A stretch of DNA of 64,000 bases. Origin: Spirosoma montaniterrae (GTDB lineage Bacteria; Bacteroidota; Bacteroidia; Cytophagales; Spirosomataceae). The first letter of the stretch is position 1. Each line of letters opens with the position of its first letter. The stretch is from NCBI RefSeq assembly GCF_001988955.1, contig NZ_CP014263.1, positions 186,001 to 250,000 on the forward strand. The letters run 5' to 3'. The position numbers were made by a program, and so were the translations under genes. The notes under the pieces are model-generated. The model was not told the origin of the DNA. It worked only from the letters and a program-made list of their open reading frames with translations, and ran no database searches. Below are positions 7,364-61,737 of the stretch, in pieces.

Positions 7364-8383
7364 ATGAGACGAATTCAATTGTTGCTCGGCCTGCTCATTG
7401 TCTGCCTGACAACGACTGCCCACCCGCCAAAACGGATAAAACGGGCTACCGAGTGTCGAACCGTTGAGCGTCGAACCGTCCCCAACGATTTTTTCGTATT
7501 GCACAATGCCATCCGGGGCGATTCGACGTACAAAACGTTCGATCAGCAAGTTGCGCTGATTAAAAGTCTCGGTTACGATGGCGTGGAGATCAACCAACTG
7601 GAGTCGTTCGAGGGCATGAAAACCGCGCTGGACAAGCACCGATTTACCGGCTCGTATTTCTACATCCGTGTCAACCTCGACCAGCCGGAGTTAGACCCGC
7701 GTATTGAACCCTACATCCGGGCGTTGGCCGGGAGCAAAACCATATTGGCCCCCTTCATCGTCGGCGATAAAACCCGGTTTCCTCCTGGGCGGCATTCCGC
7801 TGGGCGGCATTCCGCTGGGCGGCATTCCGCTGGGCGGCATCCCGCATCGTCAGGCGTGGCCGATAGCGTGGTGGTGCGGCACCTGCGGCAGATGGCCGAT
7901 TGGGCCAAAGCCGCCGGGCTGACAATTGCTCTCTATCCCCATGTAGGTTTTTATGTGGAACGGGCCGACCACGCTTTACAACTTGTGGAGCAGGTGGCTC
8001 GCCCAAACGTGGGACTGACTTTCAACCTCTGTCATTGGTTGGCCACGCGGGAAGGCGGACCGGTAGCTTTTCGTTACGACTGGAAGCCGCTGCTGGCCAA
8101 GCTGAAACCCCACCTGAAAATGATGACCATTTGCGGAGCCAACGATGTGCCGCTGACTCAGGCGGCAAAAGAGCCGGGCGGACTCTGGAACGACTATATC
8201 AAACTACTCGGAACGGGCAGCTTCGACACCTACGAACTGGTTCGATACGCCGTGCAGGAACTGGGATTTCGCGGCCCCATTGGGGTGCAGTTCTACGCGC
8301 TGAAAGGCGATAAACCCACCAACCTCCGCCAGACAATGGCGGTCTGGCAAGAATACCAAACCCGTTTCCCGCGACTTCGCTGA
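7364..8383 (+). CDS. Sugar phosphate isomerase/epimerase-like TIM-barrel protein with repeat insertion
   Basis: 339 residues from the ATG at 7364 (a GTG at 7340 would overlap the previous gene and spoil the signal peptide MRRIQLLLGLLIVCLTTTA). The body is of the xylose-isomerase-like TIM-barrel class: LIKSLGYDGVEINQLE, LTIALYPHVGFYVE, NVGLTFNLCHWL, and the final GFRGPIGVQFYAL. Predicted periplasmic isomerase or epimerase working with the oxidoreductase before it. Odd feature: about residues 142-163 are a GRHSA repeat coded by four 15-bp units, sitting in a loop between barrel strands. The rest of the protein looks intact. Confidence 0.85.
   Translation: MRRIQLLLGLLIVCLTTTAHPPKRIKRATECRTVERRTVPNDFFVLHNAIRGDSTYKTFDQQVALIKSLGYDGVEINQLESFEGMKTALDKHRFTGSYFYIRVNLDQPELDPRIEPYIRALAGSKTILAPFIVGDKTRFPPGRHSAGRHSAGRHSAGRHPASSGVADSVVVRHLRQMADWAKAAGLTIALYPHVGFYVERADHALQLVEQVARPNVGLTFNLCHWLATREGGPVAFRYDWKPLLAKLKPHLKMMTICGANDVPLTQAAKEPGGLWNDYIKLLGTGSFDTYELVRYAVQELGFRGPIGVQFYALKGDKPTNLRQTMAVWQEYQTRFPRLR
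7786..7845 (+). repeat. Four tandem 15-bp units inside the isomerase gene
   Basis: The unit TGGGCGGCATTCCGC is repeated four times without gaps; the last copy has one T-to-C change. It is a multiple of three, so the frame is kept and it reads as GRHSA repeats. The near identity of copies suggests recent slippage expansion. Confidence 0.97.
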
Positions 8384-14723: not shown

Positions 14724-14822
14724 AAAGAGTGAAAGAGTGAAAGAGCGAAAGAGCGAAAGAGCGAGAGAGCAACTTCGTGACAGGCTCTTCCGCTCTTTCA
14801 CTCTTTCGCTCTTTCACTCTTT
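14724..14822. repeat. Inverted repeat of GAAAGAG(T/C)G words between ubiE and dipeptidase
   Basis: Left arm 14724-14761 and right arm 14785-14822, 38 bases with 35 matching, each built of 8-base words AAAGAGTG and AAAGAGCG. It starts at the base next to the ubiE ATG and lies in the divergent promoter region. Confidence 0.9.
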
Positions 14823-17222: not shown

Positions 17223-17338
17223 CAAAGATAAGGATGGAACGCGGATGACGCGGATTGTGCGGATCTACACGAAATCGGTAAAATAAATCGGTGTAAATCT
17301 GTAACATCCGTCCAATCCGTGTTCCATCCTTATCTTTG
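17223..17338. promoter_or_regulatory. Symmetric inverted repeat with outward-facing -7 boxes between tgt and glycosyltransferase
   Basis: The 18-bp arms CAAAGATAAGGATGGAAC (17223-17240) and its exact complement GTTCCATCCTTATCTTTG (17321-17338) end in TATCTTTG boxes pointing outward on each strand. Imperfect pairing continues inward through CGGAT words. -33 elements are not clear. Position fits divergent promoters for tgt and the leader ORF plus glycosyltransferase. Confidence 0.6.
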
Positions 17339-18595: not shown

Positions 18596-19219
18596 ATGGA
18601 GTTGATCTTAAAATACTTCCCTAATCTAACCGAGCGGCAGCGTGAGCAGTTTGCGGCTCTCGATGGGCTTTACCGCGACTGGAACGCTAAAATCAACGTG
18701 ATTTCGCGGCAGGACATCGATGCGTTATACGAAAAGCATATAGTGCACTCGCTCGGTATCGCGAAGGTGGTTGCATTCAAGCCTGGCACCGAAGTGCTCG
18801 ATGTTGGTACAGGGGGCGGGTTTCCAGGCATTCCGCTGGCGATTCTATTTCCACTGGTCGATTTTCATCTGGTCGATAGCATCGGTAAGAAAATAAAGGT
18901 AGTGCAGGAAGTGTCCGATGCACTCGGTCTGACCAACGTAAAGGCCGAACAGGCCCGCGTAGAACAACTTGATACCACCTACGATTTTGTGGTAAGCCGG
19001 GCTGTTACGCGCCTGAAGCCGTTTCTGGGCTGGGTGCGGTATAAGATTCTGAAAAATGGCAACAACGACCGGCGGAACGGGGTTTTATACCTGAAAGGGG
19101 GCGATTTAGCTGAAGAACTCGCCGAAATACCCGACCGTTACCGGGTTTTCGAGCTTTCTGACTACTTTAGCGAACCGTTTTTCGAGACTAAAAAAGTGAT
19201 TTACATACCAAAAAAGTGA
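18596..19219 (+). CDS. rsmG: 16S rRNA (guanine527-N7)-methyltransferase
   Basis: 207 residues from the ATG at 18596 (MELILKYFPNLTERQREQF is the usual N-terminus; an ATG six codons upstream is less likely). SAM-binding VLDVGTGGGFPGIPLAI and the following HLVDSIGKKIKVVQ are diagnostic; VVSRAVTRLKPFLGW is the substrate-side motif. Acts on 16S rRNA in the cytoplasm. It starts 28 bases after the glycosyltransferase gene on the same strand. The stop TGA at 19217-19219 touches a 32-bp perfect inverted repeat. Confidence 0.96.
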   Translation: MELILKYFPNLTERQREQFAALDGLYRDWNAKINVISRQDIDALYEKHIVHSLGIAKVVAFKPGTEVLDVGTGGGFPGIPLAILFPLVDFHLVDSIGKKIKVVQEVSDALGLTNVKAEQARVEQLDTTYDFVVSRAVTRLKPFLGWVRYKILKNGNNDRRNGVLYLKGGDLAEELAEIPDRYRVFELSDYFSEPFFETKKVIYIPKK

Positions 19220-19322
19220 ACTGTGATTCGTGGGATTAGGCTGACTGACTTTGATTACTTCGCCTTCGGCGATGAATTGAAAATAATCAGAGTCAGTCAG
19301 CCTAATCCCACGAATCACAGTT
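19219..19322. repeat. 32-bp perfect inverted repeat filling the rsmG downstream gap
   Basis: Left arm 19219-19250, right arm 19291-19322, identical as reverse complements over all 32 bases (outer ends AACTGTGATTCGTGGGATTA). The 40-base spacer has its own hairpin TCGCC-TTC-GGCGA. It begins in the rsmG stop codon and ends 11 bases before the next ATG. It could act as a terminator or mRNA stem. Confidence 0.95.
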
Positions 19323-19332
19323 CGAGACACAT

Positions 19333-25838: not shown

Positions 25839-26233
25839 TGAACCTATTTAGAATTATAGCATCTCGTAAGGAAATCTGTTAATGTATTATGCCGTATGTA
25901 TGGCTGGCGCAAAGGAGACGCAAAGGGTTGCGTCTGTACACGGGACGATCAAATGTAGAGACGCAACCCTTTGCGTCTCCTTTGCGTCAGCCATCATCCC
26001 CTTTGCGTCTCCTTTGCGTCAGCAACACGCCAGAGGTAGTTTAGCTGGATATAAAGTGTTAATAATCAGGTATTTATAATTATGAACTTCTCGTGTTACA
26101 TCCGTGCTATTTTTTGGGAAATCCGTGTTAGCCCCCGCCTGAGAGCTGGCAATACCTTTGTCACCGTAAGGTAATCGCCGAATCACCTGTAAGCAGAAGG
26201 CAGCTAATTTCTCGTTTTTTTACACACATTATC
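25839..26233. other. 395-base intergenic stretch, largely repeat
   Basis: The first third holds a full copy of the GTAGAGACGCAA palindromic element (25901-26023). The rest (26024-26233) is A+T-rich and I see no gene, RNA or clear promoter in it. Short frames here are translations of the repeat and should not be called as genes. Confidence 0.7.
25901..26023. repeat. GAGACGCAA palindromic element, complete copy plus extra half-unit
   Basis: Left arm 25901-25935 and right arm 25959-25993 are reverse complements at 34 of 35 positions (TGGCTGGCGCAAAGGAGACG at the left end). Each arm holds its own hairpin: GAGACGCAA-AGGG-TTGCGTCT and GAGACGCAA-CCCT-TTGCGTCTC. A further CTTTGCGTCTCCTTTGCGTC half-unit follows. 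Same family at 34.7, 36.0, 43.2, 57.5 and 61.6 kb. Confidence 0.95.
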
Positions 26234-33868: not shown

Positions 33869-33989
33869 GCAGCCAGCAGCCAACAGTGTTTGGCTATGAC
33901 TGAAATATTTTCAGCAAAGTAAGCATACAGAGCGGCACTTCAACGGTTACCTGTTAGCACTTAGATGTTCACTGTTGGTTGCTGGCTGT
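33869..33989. repeat. Inverted repeat between marR and phhA (AACAGCCAACAG type)
   Basis: Arms 33869-33888 (GCAGCCAGCAGCCAACAGTG) and 33970-33989, 18 of 20 matching. The right arm is inside the last codons of phhA and gives it a NSQQPTVNI tail. A related repeat ends rnpA. Confidence 0.8.
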
Positions 33990-34713
33990 TCACTGCTAAC
34001 TGTCTTTCAAGCGTTTCCTCAATTTCCGGGATGGAATGGAAGAGTTGTTCAAACGAGTCGATGACAAAATATCGCTCCTGAAAACGGTCGATGATGTACG
34101 GCGTTTGGAGCAGCGTTGCCACGTCATACGGGTGCCGCTTCGGCACGTCGCTTTCCAGACTATACACCGTCTCACCCGGCGACGACAGAATGCCCCCGCC
34201 ATAAATCCGCAGCCCCTCCGGTTCCCGAATCAGCCCGAACTCGACCGTGTACCAGTACAGCCGCGAAATCATGTCGATGGCGTCGGGGTTTTCAACGTGT
34301 CCGAGTGCGATACGGCTCAATTCCTGCAAGAAATCGCAGAAATGCTGATTCGTCAGTACCGGCACATGGCCGAAGGTGTCGTGAAACATATCGGGTTCGG
34401 GCAGGTAATCGAGCTGATCGCGGGTGCGGAGCCAGGTCGTGGCCGGAAACTTGCGGTCAGCCATCAGCTCGAAGAAATCGCGATTGGGAATCAGGCCCGG
34501 CACGGCCACCACCTGCCAGCCCGTAATGGGTTGCAAGCGCGGATTCAGCATATTCTCGAAATCGGGAATACGCACGTCCGGGAATCCCGACGCCAGAATC
34601 CCGTCCATGTATGTCTGACTCGCCCGCCCCGGCAGCAGTTCCATCTGCCGCTCGTAGAGCGTCCGCCAAACCGCCTGATCGTCGGCTGTGTATTTAGAAT
34701 AGTTTTGGATCAT
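33961..34713 (-). CDS. phhA: Phenylalanine 4-hydroxylase
   Basis: 250 residues from the ATG at 34713. Converts phenylalanine to tyrosine with O2 and a pterin. Iron ligands His111 and His116 in FHDTFGHVPVLT and Glu158 in YWYTVEFGL are all present. The C-terminal tail NSQQPTVNI is coded by the local repeat and not part of the family core. Start: an in-frame ATG at 34815 overlaps the hpd stop (ATGA) and would add 34 residues read from the palindromic element; MIQNYSKYT is the normal family start and is preferred. Confidence 0.95.
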   Translation of the reverse strand: MIQNYSKYTADDQAVWRTLYERQMELLPGRASQTYMDGILASGFPDVRIPDFENMLNPRLQPITGWQVVAVPGLIPNRDFFELMADRKFPATTWLRTRDQLDYLPEPDMFHDTFGHVPVLTNQHFCDFLQELSRIALGHVENPDAIDMISRLYWYTVEFGLIREPEGLRIYGGGILSSPGETVYSLESDVPKRHPYDVATLLQTPYIIDRFQERYFVIDSFEQLFHSIPEIEETLERQLAVNSQQPTVNI

Positions 34714-34724
34714 GGTATGTATTT

Positions 34725-34805
34725 GTAGAGACGCAACCCTTTGCGTCTCCTGTGCGTCAGCAACAACCCATCCGGTTGTAGAGACGCAAAATCTTGCGTC
34801 TCTAC
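34725..34805. repeat. GTAGAGACGCAA palindromic element between hpd and phhA
   Basis: Hairpin GTAGAGACGCAA-CCCT-TTGCGTCTC (34725-34749), loop segment with CCATCCGG, and perfect 12-bp stem hairpin GTAGAGACGCAA-AATC-TTGCGTCTCTAC (34778-34805). It fills almost the whole hpd-phhA gap and has no stop codon in the phhA frame. Confidence 0.95.
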
Positions 34806-34811
34806 GCGTGT

Positions 34812-35942
34812 TCATAACGTTCCTCGTAACGCCTGTTCGCGCTCGATGGCTTCGAAGAGGGCTTTGAAATTGCCTTTTCCGAACGAACGGGCACCTTTGC
34901 GCTGAATGATCTCGAAAAATAACGTCGGGCGTGGGCAGATTGGTTTGGTAAATATCTGGAGGAGGTAGCCCTCGTCGTCGCGGTCGACCAGCACACCAAG
35001 CGGACGGAGCGTAGCAATCTCTTCGTCGATTTGCCCAACGCGGTCGAGCAGATTGTCGTAATACGTGTCGGGGACGGTCAGAAATTCAACCCCCCGCTCG
35101 CGCAGCGTCAGCACGGTTTCCACGATATTGTCGGTTGCTACGGCGATATGCTGTACGCCCGGCCCGCCGTAGAAATCGAGGTATTCTTCGATTTGCGATT
35201 TCTTCTTGCCCTCGGCGGGTTCGTTGATCGGGAACTTCACGCGCCCGTTGCCGTTGCTCATCACCTTGCTCATCAGAGCCGTGTACTCGGTCGAAATGTC
35301 TTTGTCATCGAACGATACGAGTTGCTGAAAGCCCATTACGTCCTGGTAGAACTGCATCCACTGGTTCATCTCGTTCCAGCCTACGTTACCTACCATGTGA
35401 TCAACGTATTTCAAGCCTGCATCAGCGGGCCGGTACGTAGGATTCCAGGCTTCGTAGCCGGGCAGGAAAATCCCGTTGTATGCCCCGCGTTCCACAAAAA
35501 TATGCACCGTGTCGCCGTAGGTGTGAATGCCCGAACGCACTACGTAACCGTGCGTGTCTTCCTCACGCGTGGGCGGCATAAACGGTTTGGCTCCGCGTTT
35601 GGTGGTCTCGTCAAATGCCCGCGTGGCATCATCGACCCACAACGCCACCACCCGAACGCCATCGCCGTGCCGGTCGATGTGGCGACCAATTTCCGTATCG
35701 CCGTGCAGGGGCGAGGTTAGCACAAGCCGGATTTTGTCCTGCTGCACCATGAATGATTCGCGGTCGCGCAGGCCGGTCGATAGCCCTGCGTGGGCCACCG
35801 GCTGAAAGCCAAACGCGGTCTGAAAGTAGTGTGCCGACTGCCGGGCATTGCCTACGTACAGTTCGAGGTAATCGGTGCCATTGAGCGGCAGGAAATCAAT
35901 GCCTTCGGCGGATTGGGGTTTGAGAAGTTCGAGTGTTTCCAT
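34812..35942 (-). CDS. hpd: 4-Hydroxyphenylpyruvate dioxygenase
   Basis: 376 residues, two VOC-type domains. Forms homogentisate from 4-hydroxyphenylpyruvate. Iron ligands: His in KYVDHMVGNVG, His in GVQHIAVATDNI, Glu in LFFEIIQRKGARSFG. The last motif is diagnostic for this enzyme. It lies between hmgA and phhA, all minus strand, with palindromic elements in both gaps. Confidence 0.97.
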   Translation of the reverse strand: METLELLKPQSAEGIDFLPLNGTDYLELYVGNARQSAHYFQTAFGFQPVAHAGLSTGLRDRESFMVQQDKIRLVLTSPLHGDTEIGRHIDRHGDGVRVVALWVDDATRAFDETTKRGAKPFMPPTREEDTHGYVVRSGIHTYGDTVHIFVERGAYNGIFLPGYEAWNPTYRPADAGLKYVDHMVGNVGWNEMNQWMQFYQDVMGFQQLVSFDDKDISTEYTALMSKVMSNGNGRVKFPINEPAEGKKKSQIEEYLDFYGGPGVQHIAVATDNIVETVLTLRERGVEFLTVPDTYYDNLLDRVGQIDEEIATLRPLGVLVDRDDEGYLLQIFTKPICPRPTLFFEIIQRKGARSFGKGNFKALFEAIEREQALRGTL

Positions 35943-35960: not shown

Positions 35961-36065
35961 GTAGAGACGCAAGATTTTGCGTCTCGTTGGCGAGATTTTG
36001 CGTCTCGTTAATAGCAAGATTTAAAAAACCATCCGGTCATGAGACGCAAAATCTTGCGTCTCTAC
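35961..36065. repeat. GAGACGCAA palindromic element between hmgA and hpd
   Basis: Hairpin GAGACGCAA-GATT-TTGCGTCTC (35964-35985), a second half-copy, a loop with CCATCCGGTC, and a final hairpin GAGACGCAA-AATC-TTGCGTCTCTAC (36041-36065) that ends one base from the hmgA stop codon. It uses the GATT/AATC loop type. Confidence 0.95.
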
Positions 36066-42918: not shown

Positions 42919-43247
42919 AGTGCTAAAATTCCTAACGCTTTATGTAAGATTACGATATATAATTTTTTGCACCCTGACGTACTTAGAGACAATCAGAATA
43001 ATATTTGGCAACTCCGGCCAAAATGGACAAGCCACGGGCAGAGTTTTCGCCCGATTTGATCCGTTCCCAACAGTTAAGGCCCCTCGGTCTAATACCGTAT
43101 GAATTGTGATATATCCCGGCCTATTCTGCACACATACTGCGAAAAAAGGCGGCTGAACTCGTTATGGGTTCAGCCGCCTTTTTTCGCATGAACTTGGTGT
43201 TGTATTGGCGTATGGCTGGCGCAGGTGAGACGCAAAGGGTTGCGTCT
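42919..43247. other. 329-base intergenic stretch with terminator and half a palindromic element
   Basis: Between convergent HxlR and DUF937/OmpA genes. It has one strong bidirectional terminator and a solo arm of the GAGACGCAA element. Nothing else seen; the 42919-43130 part has no gene I can support. Confidence 0.7.
43138..43188. terminator. Bidirectional terminator, 21-bp perfect stem
   Basis: Arms 43138-43158 and 43168-43188 are exact complements (TGCGAAAAAAGGCGGCTGAA at the left), loop of 9, with A and T tracts placed to work in both directions for the two convergent genes. Confidence 0.92.
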
Positions 43248-43251
43248 CTAC
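43213..43251. repeat. Solo arm of the GAGACGCAA palindromic element at a gene end
   Basis: TGGCTGGCGCAGGTGAGACG with hairpin GAGACGCAA-AGGG-TTGCGTCTC (43227-43248). The TAG stop of the DUF937/OmpA gene (43250-43248) is the TAG of the GTAGAGACG motif. Confidence 0.92.
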
Positions 43252-49834: not shown

Positions 49835-49853
49835 AAATTATGCTGGGTAATAG

Positions 49854-49953
49854 GTTGTTACACAGAGATGCACTAAGAAAAAGAGATACCCAGAGATTCT
49901 TTTAAAACATTCTCCGTGTATCTCCTTTCCTCCGTGCATCTCTGTGTAATAAC
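49854..49953. repeat. Imperfect long inverted repeat after the glycosyltransferase gene
   Basis: Outer arms GTTGTTACACAGAGATGCA and TGCATCTCTGTGTAATAAC (one mismatch); pairing continues inward through AGAGATAC / GTATCTC. Lies between convergent genes, so probably acts as a terminator. Confidence 0.8.
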
Positions 49954-49973
49954 TTATCCACATACAGAAATTC

Positions 49974-52831: not shown

Positions 52832-53686
52832 ATGAATGAAAAAACGCTTACCTCGATGTCGGGTTATCTGTTGTTGCTGATGGCCGTCGTGTGTTTGTTG
52901 GGAGCTGCCGCCGTTGGCGTGGCTCAGGTAGGCTGGCTTTTAGCTGGTCTGCTTTTCCTGATGTCAATGATTCTGTTTATGGGTATCACCGTCATCAATC
53001 CAAACGAAGCCGTAGCCTGCACGTTCTTCGGCGATTATGTGGGCACCATGAAACAGAATGGGCTGCGGTGGGTGAATCCGCTCTACAGCAAAACCAAAAT
53101 CAGCCTGCGGGCGCGTAACTTCAACGGGCAGCAGATTAAAGTGAACGACAAGATGGGCAATCCCATCGAGATTGCCGCCGTAGTGGTATGGCAGGTGGTC
53201 GATACGGCCAAAGCCCTGTTCGATGTTGACAGTTACCAGACATTCGTGCAGATTCAATCGGAAGCTGCCGTGCGGTTTCTGGCGAGTTCACATGCCTACG
53301 ACAACATGGAAGACGAAGACGAAACCGTGATTCTGCGCGATAATACGGGTCAGATCAATAGTTTTCTGGAGCAGGAACTGAACGAGCGGCTTGGTCAGGC
53401 GGGCGTTCGGGTGATGGAAGCGCGGATTAGCCACCTTGCCTACGCGCCCGAAATTGCAGGAGCCATGTTGCAACGCCAGCAGGCTACAGCGGTGGTATCG
53501 GCCCGGAAGCAGATTGTGGAGGGAGCCGTCGGGATGGTGGAGATGGCGCTGACGCGGCTGGCCGAAAAAGGCGTAGTGCAGTTAGACGAAGAGCGGAAAG
53601 CCGCCATGGTCAGCAACCTGCTGGTGGTGCTATGCGGTGAGAAAAACGTAAGCCCCGTAGTAAACGCCGGAACGCTTTATCCGTGA
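52832..53686 (+). CDS. SPFH (band 7/stomatin-like) membrane protein
   Basis: 284 residues from the ATG at 52832. Two N-terminal membrane segments ([40 protein letters not shown]) and an SPFH domain ([60 protein letters not shown]). Probably forms oligomeric membrane scaffolds. A short Arc-type DNA-binding gene follows, separated only by a perfect 31-bp inverted repeat that begins at this stop codon. I recall SPFH-Arc pairs in this phylum; their joint role is unknown. Confidence 0.9.
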
Positions 53687-53760
53687 TGAGTGATGAACGA
53701 TGAGTGATGAGTGGTTTACGCGCAGGCGACACTCATCACTCATCGTTCATCACTCATCAC
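53683..53760. repeat. 31-bp perfect inverted repeat made of GATGAGT words
   Basis: Arms 53683-53713 and 53730-53760 are exact complements (GTGATGAGTGATGAACGATG at the left end), spacer of 16. It starts at the SPFH stop codon and ends 10 bases before the Arc ATG, thus fills the whole gap. Confidence 0.97.
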
Positions 53761-53770
53761 TCAAAAACTT

Positions 53771-57188: not shown

Positions 57189-57191
57189 AGT

Positions 57192-57291
57192 CAGTTATCA
57201 ATTAACAGCCAACAGCCAACAGTACGCAAAACAACCCCTTTGAACGCAGTTAGCGTTTAGCTGTTGGCTGTTGGCTGTTACCTGATAACTG
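57192..57291. repeat. Inverted repeat between rnpA and ctpA (AACAGCCAACAG type)
   Basis: Arms 57192-57222 and 57261-57291, 29 of 31 bases complementary (CAGTTATCAATTAACAGCCA at the left end). The right arm runs through the last codons of rnpA and gives it a GNSQQPTAKR tail, like the related tail of phhA. Confidence 0.92.
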
Positions 57292-57750
57292 TCTGAGGGC
57301 TAATTTCATGCCTTTTTCTATCTCTTCAAACGAAATTATTTGTTTGGCGGTATATAAAAACGCAATGTAAGCCGGGCGGGGGCTTTCGGCCCGGAGCAGG
57401 TGTTTATTAAGCCGATACGCTTCGCGCACGCGCCGACGAATCAGGTTGCGGTCGACGGCCCGTTTAAACATGCGTTTAGGTACAGTGATAACAATGGCGG
57501 GTACAGGTAGAGACGCGACCCTTCGCGTCTCCTGTGCGTCAGCAACCCTTTGCGTCTCGCTCGCGTCAGCAACAGCCATCCGGTCAGGAGACGCAACATC
57601 TTGCATCTGTACCTGTGTTGGCATATACAACACCCGAAACGGAAAAAGGTAGAACGTCTGAACCGACGGACTACCTTTCTTAAATAGTTCACCCAGAATC
57701 TTTTTGCTGCAAAGCCGCTCCGATTTGGTAAAGGTTTGCCGCATTGACAT
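57250..57750 (-). CDS. rnpA: Ribonuclease P protein component with ~38-residue palindromic insertion
   Basis: 166 residues; protein cofactor of the tRNA 5'-processing ribozyme. Core is intact: FTKSERLCSKKILGELFKKG at the N-terminus and RAVDRNLIRRRVREAYRLNK (RNR motif). Residues about 45-82 are not family sequence: they are the translation of a GTAGAGACGC palindromic element (contains DASETQRVADAQETRRVASL). The insertion falls between the strand FYLFPFRVLYMP and the strand AIVITVPKRMF. Without it the length is about 128, normal. The C-terminal SGNSQQPTAKR also derives from a repeat. rnpA is essential, so the insert must be tolerated. Confidence 0.95.
   Translation of the reverse strand: MSMRQTFTKSERLCSKKILGELFKKGSPSVQTFYLFPFRVLYMPTQVQMQDVASPDRMAVADASETQRVADAQETRRVASLPVPAIVITVPKRMFKRAVDRNLIRRRVREAYRLNKHLLRAESPRPAYIAFLYTAKQIISFEEIEKGMKLALRQLSGNSQQPTAKR
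57501..57617 (-). repeat. GTAGAGACGC palindromic element inserted in frame in rnpA
   Basis: Holds GTAGAGACGCGACCCTTCGC hairpin at 57507-57531, two GCGTCAGCAAC segments, the CCATCCGG loop piece and the closing half GAGACGCAACATCTTGCATC. It is more diverged from the hairpin consensus than other copies, and has no stop codon in the rnpA frame. Confidence 0.93.
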
Positions 57751-57757
57751 AGGCTTT

Positions 57758-57925
57758 TTAAATCTTGAACCGCTCGCCTTTTTTCTCGTCTGAAACGGTT
57801 AGTTTCCAGCGACCTTTGGCACGACGGCGGGCCAGCACCTGCCGGCCATTGGCGGTTGACATCCGCTCACGGAAGCCGTGCTTGTTTTTGCGCTTCCGGT
57901 TCGATGGTTGGTACGTTCTTTTCAT
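57758..57925 (-). CDS. rpmH: 50S ribosomal protein L34
   Basis: 55 residues: [20 protein letters not shown], then [20 protein letters not shown], the invariant L34 sequence, with a short C-terminal extension ending GERFKI. First gene of the rpmH-rnpA run, 7 bases before the rnpA ATG. Confidence 0.98.
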
Positions 57926-61562: not shown

Positions 61563-61737
61563 TGGCTGGCGCGTGTAGAGACGCAAAGGGTTGCGTCTCT
61601 ACAGGTGACCATCCGGCGTAGAGACGCAACCCTTTGCGTCTTTTTCGCGTCAGCCACGTTGGATGTCTCTTTCGCGCCAGCCATCACCCCCTTTGCGTCT
61701 CTTTCGCGTCAGCCATTACCCCTTCGCATCAGCCACA
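61563..61737. repeat. GTAGAGACGCAA palindromic element, largest copy
   Basis: Perfect 12-bp stem GTAGAGACGCAA-AGGG-TTGCGTCTCTAC (61575-61602), loop with CCATCCGG, complementary half GTAGAGACGCAACCCTTTGC from 61618, then two to three decaying CCTTTGCGTCTCTTTCGCGT half-units. The outer ends are TGGCTGGCGC and GCGTCAGCCA. Confidence 0.95.

Follow-up and report, generated by a model that had tools for sequence, protein, structure and literature searches.

RnpA is an essential protein, and the sole match to it in this single-contig Spirosoma genome of 5.80 Mb is encoded in the window (that is, the whole 64-kb stretch of DNA analysed here), a second hit corresponding to a repeat element only. Among named proteins, its best relatives come from Spirosoma species. 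The 166-residue product is matched by the Pfam family Ribonuclease_P (E 1.4e-10) and scores 32.9 bits with the NCBIfam rnpA model, under the model cut-off of 38.35. In window positions, the features of the locus are as follows:

57250-57750, reverse strand: rnpA, RNase P protein component, 166 aa in a single uninterrupted frame.
57758-57925, reverse strand: directly upstream neighbour of rnpA, which we take from its sequence to be rpmH (L34).
57507-57612, reverse strand: in-frame palindromic element in rnpA, 106 nt, with outward-facing GTA ends; it extends from GTAG (57507) to TAC (57612).
57507-57531, no strand assigned: outer hairpin unit 1 of the element, GTAG-AGACGCGA-CCCT-TCGCGTCT.
57532-57587, no strand assigned: inner spacer of the element, GCGTCAGC and CATCCGG modules plus one extra sub-repeat.
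57588-57612, no strand assigned: outer hairpin unit 2 of the element, AGACGCAA-CATC-TTGCATCT, then GTAC, with 2 mismatches relative to the core pattern.
57261-57294, reverse strand: arm of a second inverted repeat inside rnpA, CTGTTGGCTGTTGG.
57189-57222, forward strand: other arm of the second inverted repeat, outside rnpA.

The initial annotation had described a palindromic element read in frame at 57501-57617 (residues 45-82), which proved right to within a few positions: the element encodes residues 47-82 of RnpA (VQMQDVASPDRMAVADASETQRVADAQETRRVASLP). The copy is a composite, with a CCCT loop in one outer half, CATC in the other, and an extra inner sub-repeat. The second inverted repeat (57189-57294; AACAGCCAACAG / CTGTTGGCTGTT) is unrelated to the in-frame element and gives most of the C-terminal tail of RnpA, GNSQQPTAKR; a 12-mer of this repeat occurs 15 times in 2.064 Mb and 0 times in the reversed control, and the ORF at window 33961-34815 has a similar end (..NSQQPTVNI).

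The rnpA element belongs to a large family. Allowing at most one mismatch, the pattern GAGACGCN8GCGTCTC is found at 209 places in the 5,797,678-bp genome, compared to 0 for the backward pattern; with at most two mismatches, 165 hairpin sites are present in the 2.064 Mb of genome that was read for copies (stretches partly picked for known sites), against 5 in the reversed sequence. The hairpin takes the form GTAG-AGACGCAA-N4-TTGCGTCT, with an 8-bp stem and a 4-nt loop, and one stem pair among 157 hairpin halves is A-T in 144, G-C in 12, and G-T in 1. Clusters, each having a half with at most one mismatch, were designated type A when the GTA ends point inward and type B when they point outward. 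The 2.064 Mb holds 89 such clusters (40 type A, 23 type B, 4 mixed, and 22 single hairpins), type A copies being mostly 71 nt long and type B copies 71-216 nt. At the same limit of one mismatch, at least one family match was detected in 31 of 36 Spirosoma genomes, this one included, and none in the other five (G003, G005, G006, G015, and G033); the non-zero counts in other Spirosoma genomes range from 1 (G001, where the control also gives 1) to 89, and the present genome has the most. Five further copies lie in the window:

25912-25982, no strand assigned: intergenic type A copy.
34725-34805, no strand assigned: type B copy at the 5' edge of an ORF presumed, by recall, to be phenylalanine-4-hydroxylase-like.
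35961-36065, no strand assigned: intergenic type B copy.
43224-43251, no strand assigned: single hairpin unit.
61575-61645, no strand assigned: intergenic type A copy.

The window copies that the initial annotation had likened to the rnpA insert (at 25.9, 34.7, 36.0, 43.2, and 61.6 kb) thus all exist, but those at 25.9 and 61.6 kb carry GTA inward, whereas GTA in the rnpA copy points outward. Other long palindromes in the window, unrelated to the family, are located at 49850-49957, 19218-19323, 17223-17338, 14724-14822, and 53676-53767, and a 15-bp tandem repeat (CTGGGCGGCATTCCG) is present in four copies, the last with one change, at 7785-7844. Rfam identifies two tRNAs only in the 64-kb window.

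None of the RnpA proteins of 35 other Spirosoma genomes contains the element, and all have a shorter loop at this place; conservation of the insert residues in other RnpA proteins, which would have counted against the initial annotation, is accordingly not seen among them. The segment that starts with YLFPFR and ends with the second strand (VPKR) has 60 residues here, compared to 29-33 in 33 of the 34 relatives compared as DNA and 43 in the remaining one (G002). No Spirosoma relative compared has a loop that differs solely by lacking the element, and since 106 nt exceeds the difference in loop length (27-31 residues relative to the 33 genomes), the old loop was either shorter or partly lost. 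Among 120 listed of 1,015 proteins, one other, P0002, encoded by a 2,099-bp NCBI record, carries VLYMPSAVQTQDVASLQMPA in the RnpA loop, with VQTQDVASLQ at the same place as the insert described here. Read from the protein alone, the P0002 loop would fit one single hairpin, and it is separated from the present RnpA by a gap of 26 residues in alignment. P0002 was considered as a sister sequence and rejected, as a tree of 105 core columns places P0070, whose loop is without the element, nearest to this RnpA (local support 0.94); because the core tree does not make P0002 the sister, the two inserts may be separate events. In one relative (G019), the RnpA match shifts frame near query residue 123-127, with the C-terminal part in another frame.

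The insert was also examined in a predicted structure. AlphaFold2 was run on RnpA with 66 sequences, and the best of five models reached a mean pLDDT of 76, the other four being poor (52-61). In the best model, ten-residue blocks of the core are mostly at pLDDT 78-94, residues 52-60 and 64-78 are below 50, and the insert is placed between strands 37-43 and 84-88, in agreement with the earlier suggestion that it falls between two core strands. The top solved-structure matches returned by Foldseek are the Thermotoga maritima RnpA structures 1nz0 (E 1.1e-3, probability 1.00) and 3q1q. The insert thus probably adds a floppy, mostly disordered segment of about 35 amino acids to RnpA, as judged from this model; RnpA appears to tolerate it because loop length varies among relatives and the surrounding fold is unchanged.

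The same behaviour is observed in other genes of the genome. In the 2.064-Mb sample, only type B copies and single hairpins were found inside genes: 4 of 23 type B copies lie wholly in frame within proteins, compared to 0 of 43 type A copies when three mixed clusters are counted as type A (Fisher p 0.012). The four coding type B copies are those of RnpA and of the following genes:

Genome 1273055-1274305: IscS-like cysteine desulfurase with in-frame type B copy.
Genome 3481146-3482333: second cysteine desulfurase with in-frame type B copy.
Genome 1878943-1882600: icmF, fused isobutyryl-CoA mutase, with in-frame type B copy.

Three single hairpins are likewise in frame, one near the N-terminus of a DUF1501 protein (after a signal sequence, as judged by eye), one in the C-terminal tail of HypD, and one in the tail of a small protein with a sub-threshold Pfam HHH_5 (helix-hairpin-helix) match. 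GTA is read as a codon in all seven in-frame copies, and most give V-E-T..A-S-L. The four coding type B copies share one phase and all have a length of 3n+1, compared to 5 of 19 non-coding ones (p 0.014). The icmF gene contains three palindromic inserts, which represent at least two kinds and end with a long CCCTCACCCCCGGCCCTCTCCC palindrome; since the rest of the mutase domain lies in another frame downstream of this palindrome, the gene is probably broken. Two groups of candidates were rejected: element marks near the starts of ORFs at window 33961-34815 and genome 609508 are probably upstream of the true start, and in-frame readings at genome 1536540 and 229224 are opposite to, or outside, called genes.

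Type B copies that are not coding tend to lie at gene ends. With gene calls made by a simple codon-usage caller built for this analysis, a gene stop was found within 20 nt of 17 of the 19 non-coding type B copies, compared to 2 of 40 type A copies (p 1e-10), and the element's own TAG serves as the gene stop in 8 of 19 and 0 of 40, respectively.

The desulfurase IscS-2 offers a second insertion site that can be followed among relatives. Matches of at least 76% identity were read as DNA in 18 of the 36 Spirosoma genomes, this one included, and aligned in 17 rows. Element marks are present at one site in 12 of the 18, in frame in 10 and frame-broken in 2, and absent from 6; in 11 genomes the mark is the 10-base end GCGTCTCTAC, allowing one mismatch, and in the twelfth (G012) it is a degenerate hairpin. 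The two genes out of frame at the element site are those of G004 (L338; site 119 nt) and G007 (L337; site 100 nt). The marked sites of G010 and G016 measure 96 nt, the length of most unmarked sites, indicating cases of replacement or of trimming at a later stage as well. At the matching place, the second desulfurase of the present genome has its own longer copy (133 nt). In the best IscS-2 model, residues 267-274, within the insert, are at pLDDT below 50 and lie between helices 247-265 and 276-293. Each genome contains 5-11 stretches matching IscS-2, so the desulfurase paralogues are probably dispensable. Away from the element site, the iscS-2 matches of G028 (L335) and G016 (L336) are split near residue 79-89.

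Taken together, we propose that the RnpA loop between two core strands would have received an insertion of a REP-type, GTAG-tagged element from this Spirosoma genome. Under this proposal, type B copies, with GTA outward, would lie within coding sequence or immediately next to it; an in-frame TAG of the element would end the protein, and GTA as a codon, combined with a total length that keeps the frame, would let the element be translated as a mostly unstructured, hydrophilic segment. Damaging copies would then be removed by selection, so that the remaining ones would be found in loops, linkers, and tails or at stop codons. The RnpA protein is presumably made and working, with a near-neutral insert. 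We regard this explanation as a whole—that is, GTAG-REP insertion followed by selection—as very probable, and it builds on few coding type B cases (four), one of which (icmF) is in a gene with a later frame break by a different repeat.

Palindromes unrelated to the Spirosoma family occupy the same RnpA loop in other genera. The loops of Fibrisoma montanum and F. limi measure 73-78 residues and are made up of palindromes around GGTCTGACGGTACGTCTGACC; the F. montanum loop has at least 57 matches in each Fibrisoma genome, rnpA loci included (40 of 61 first-look candidates being scored in each genome), and 0 in 8 others. In the Cytophagales bin L100, the loop consists of GGGATTGGGGATTGGG and its complement; its own genome has 101 matches, three others have 61, 11, and 4, and five have 0. 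Two loops from Arcicella-like genomes, L105 and L106, show strong palindromes (z -7.4 and -4.6) but little sign of being repeated: with self included, L105 has 6 matches in its own genome versus up to 3 in other genomes, and L106 has 3 versus up to 8. The loop of L102 is marginal (z -3.08), and that of a Saprospiraceae RnpA (L113; PLLPAGEGPGEG) was rejected as repeat-derived, matching only itself in its own genome. The recurrence is therefore observed in three lineages and suggested in two more, both Arcicella-like.

Across all loci, z falls below -3 in 6 of 20 distinct loops of at least 25 aa and in 0 of 119 shorter ones, a non-random set of 139 distinct loops among 173 (from 178 rows) made up of named best hits and mostly long-span picks; the loop of L089 (z -8.3) was left out of this count by a filter. 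In an even, order-wide sample of 148 genomes, 135 had an RnpA match, of which 50 were read as DNA (30 + 20 loci) and the other 85 judged by match span only; the span exceeded 400 nt in seven genomes, all of which were read. Among the loops scored in this sample, none had z below -3 except that of the present genome, and the pattern is thus not common across the order.

These loops bear on a functional reading, in which either the inserted peptide or the strong hairpin in the mRNA would have been co-opted to adjust RNase P activity or the amount of RnpA. RNA folding of the insert region gives a z of -3.99 (4 sd better than shuffles), palindromes recur in the same loop of other genera, and both Fibrisoma species maintain the frame despite a difference of 12 nt between their loops, all of which would suit such a role. 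Unrelated sequences at one place, however, point to tolerance over shared function, all 35 Spirosoma relatives do without the insert, and hairpins characterise the family in general; we therefore consider recruitment for a function unlikely.

It had also been suggested that the element spreads by being translatable, as a Rickettsia-like element with coding capacity maintained in the family and in-frame reading as its means of spread. Seven in-frame copies (four at internal positions of conserved genes, one near the N-terminus, and two in C-terminal tails), all using the GTA-as-codon phase, would agree with this suggestion, as would the number of open frames in type A copies (3.05 vs 2.49 in shuffles) and single copies (4.68 vs 3.93), which exceeds that of shuffles. 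The non-coding type B copies (n=19), however, average 1.26 open frames of six, compared to 1.32 (sd 0.20) for dinucleotide-shuffled sequences, and 32% of them have frame 0 open, indicating no general upkeep of open frames in type B; length modulo 3 varies among these copies (2 in 9, 0 in 5, and 1 in 5), with no preferred value. The openness of type A looks like a by-product of composition, given that type A is never coding. Spread by translatability is thus not borne out and, in our judgment, quite improbable: the coding type B copies are those that chanced to fit the frame, and mixed lengths among non-coding copies versus uniform lengths among coding ones fit selection after insertion.

An error of sequencing or assembly, or a miscalled rnpA, is the least credible alternative and can be set aside as extremely improbable, for although strong palindromes are error-prone in sequencing, the genome is a single contig, the rpmH-rnpA order is present, the reading frame continues undisturbed before and after the 106-nt insert, and the P0002 record, which is independent, has VQTQDVASLQ at the same place.

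Two wider ideas may be entertained, both tentative and rather doubtful at present: the strand-strand loop of RnpA could be a general Bacteroidota landing site that repeatedly captures unrelated selfish palindromes in frame, and the GTAG-out REP dimer could be specialised for coding sequence, acting by codon phase as a stop-codon donor or a read-through insert. Were the first true, RnpA, an essential ribozyme cofactor, would record the REP families of each genome. Independently of these ideas, the locus provides a clear case outside Rickettsia in which a mobile palindrome has become part of a core protein, with 35 Spirosoma genomes lacking it, and the desulfurase provides 18 genomes with one site unmarked, filled in frame, or broken. 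The cost of such inserts, and whether they are removed only on frame break, thereby become testable questions, and the stop-or-read-through choice of GTAG-out copies suggests a simple rule by which REPs shape protein ends.

With regard to known systems, REPIN/BIME doublets are known mainly as extragenic. Like them, the present family repeats two opposite REP units in a genome with a REP-type transposase; unlike them, some copies are in genes, and no clear element was found beside the transposase gene. The genome encodes one REP-associated tyrosine transposase (RAYT; NF047646, 94.5 bits vs a cut-off of 80) and two IS200-like Y1 genes. No clear element was found within 1.5 kb of any of these three genes, the one 3-mismatch hit by the RAYT gene being at chance level. 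Movement of the family by the RAYT is plausible.

The comparison with Rickettsia palindromic elements made in the initial annotation is supported in part, since other conserved genes also carry in-frame copies, but the GTAG-REP class is closer. The Rickettsia elements are palindromes of about 150 bp that lie in frame in unrelated genes and are read as added peptides (PMC10969869; PMC3733652); here, the phylum is another, a minority of copies is coding, and non-coding type B copies have no maintained frame.

As described in 2013, GTAG REPs carry GTAG at one end, next to a short-looped hairpin whose stem spans 6-13 bp, form dimers with GTAG outside (HH) or inside (TT), and occur by gene 3' ends, where the GTAG end can supply a TAG stop; some copies are in genes, more than half of those being dimers or groups, and REP-type transposases are present in many genomes with GTAG REPs (PMC3733652). 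The Spirosoma family fits this class in its GTAG end, hairpin, HH/TT dimers, stop supply, and 3'-end position. Alternative complementary stem bases are a further likeness, matched here by A-T, G-C, and G-T at one pair, as is the use of the repeat's TAG as a gene stop, seen here in the non-coding type B copies counted above. The same paper places GTAG REPs in Proteobacteria, Cyanobacteria, Chloroflexi, and PVC, with only CGTC repeats in Bacteroidetes (PMC3733652); a further difference is that GTA-out and GTA-in copies behave differently here. The terms rnpA, RNase P, and ribonuclease P are absent from the main text of that paper, and among the matches listed in a search of open-licence literature, none concerned Spirosoma palindromes of this family or palindromic inserts in RnpA. 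In-frame REPs, Rickettsia palindromes, and a recB insertion site shared by two Xanthomonas were already known (PMC3733652; PMC10969869); as far as searched, this Bacteroidota family, RnpA as a target, and the reuse of one loop by unrelated repeats are new.
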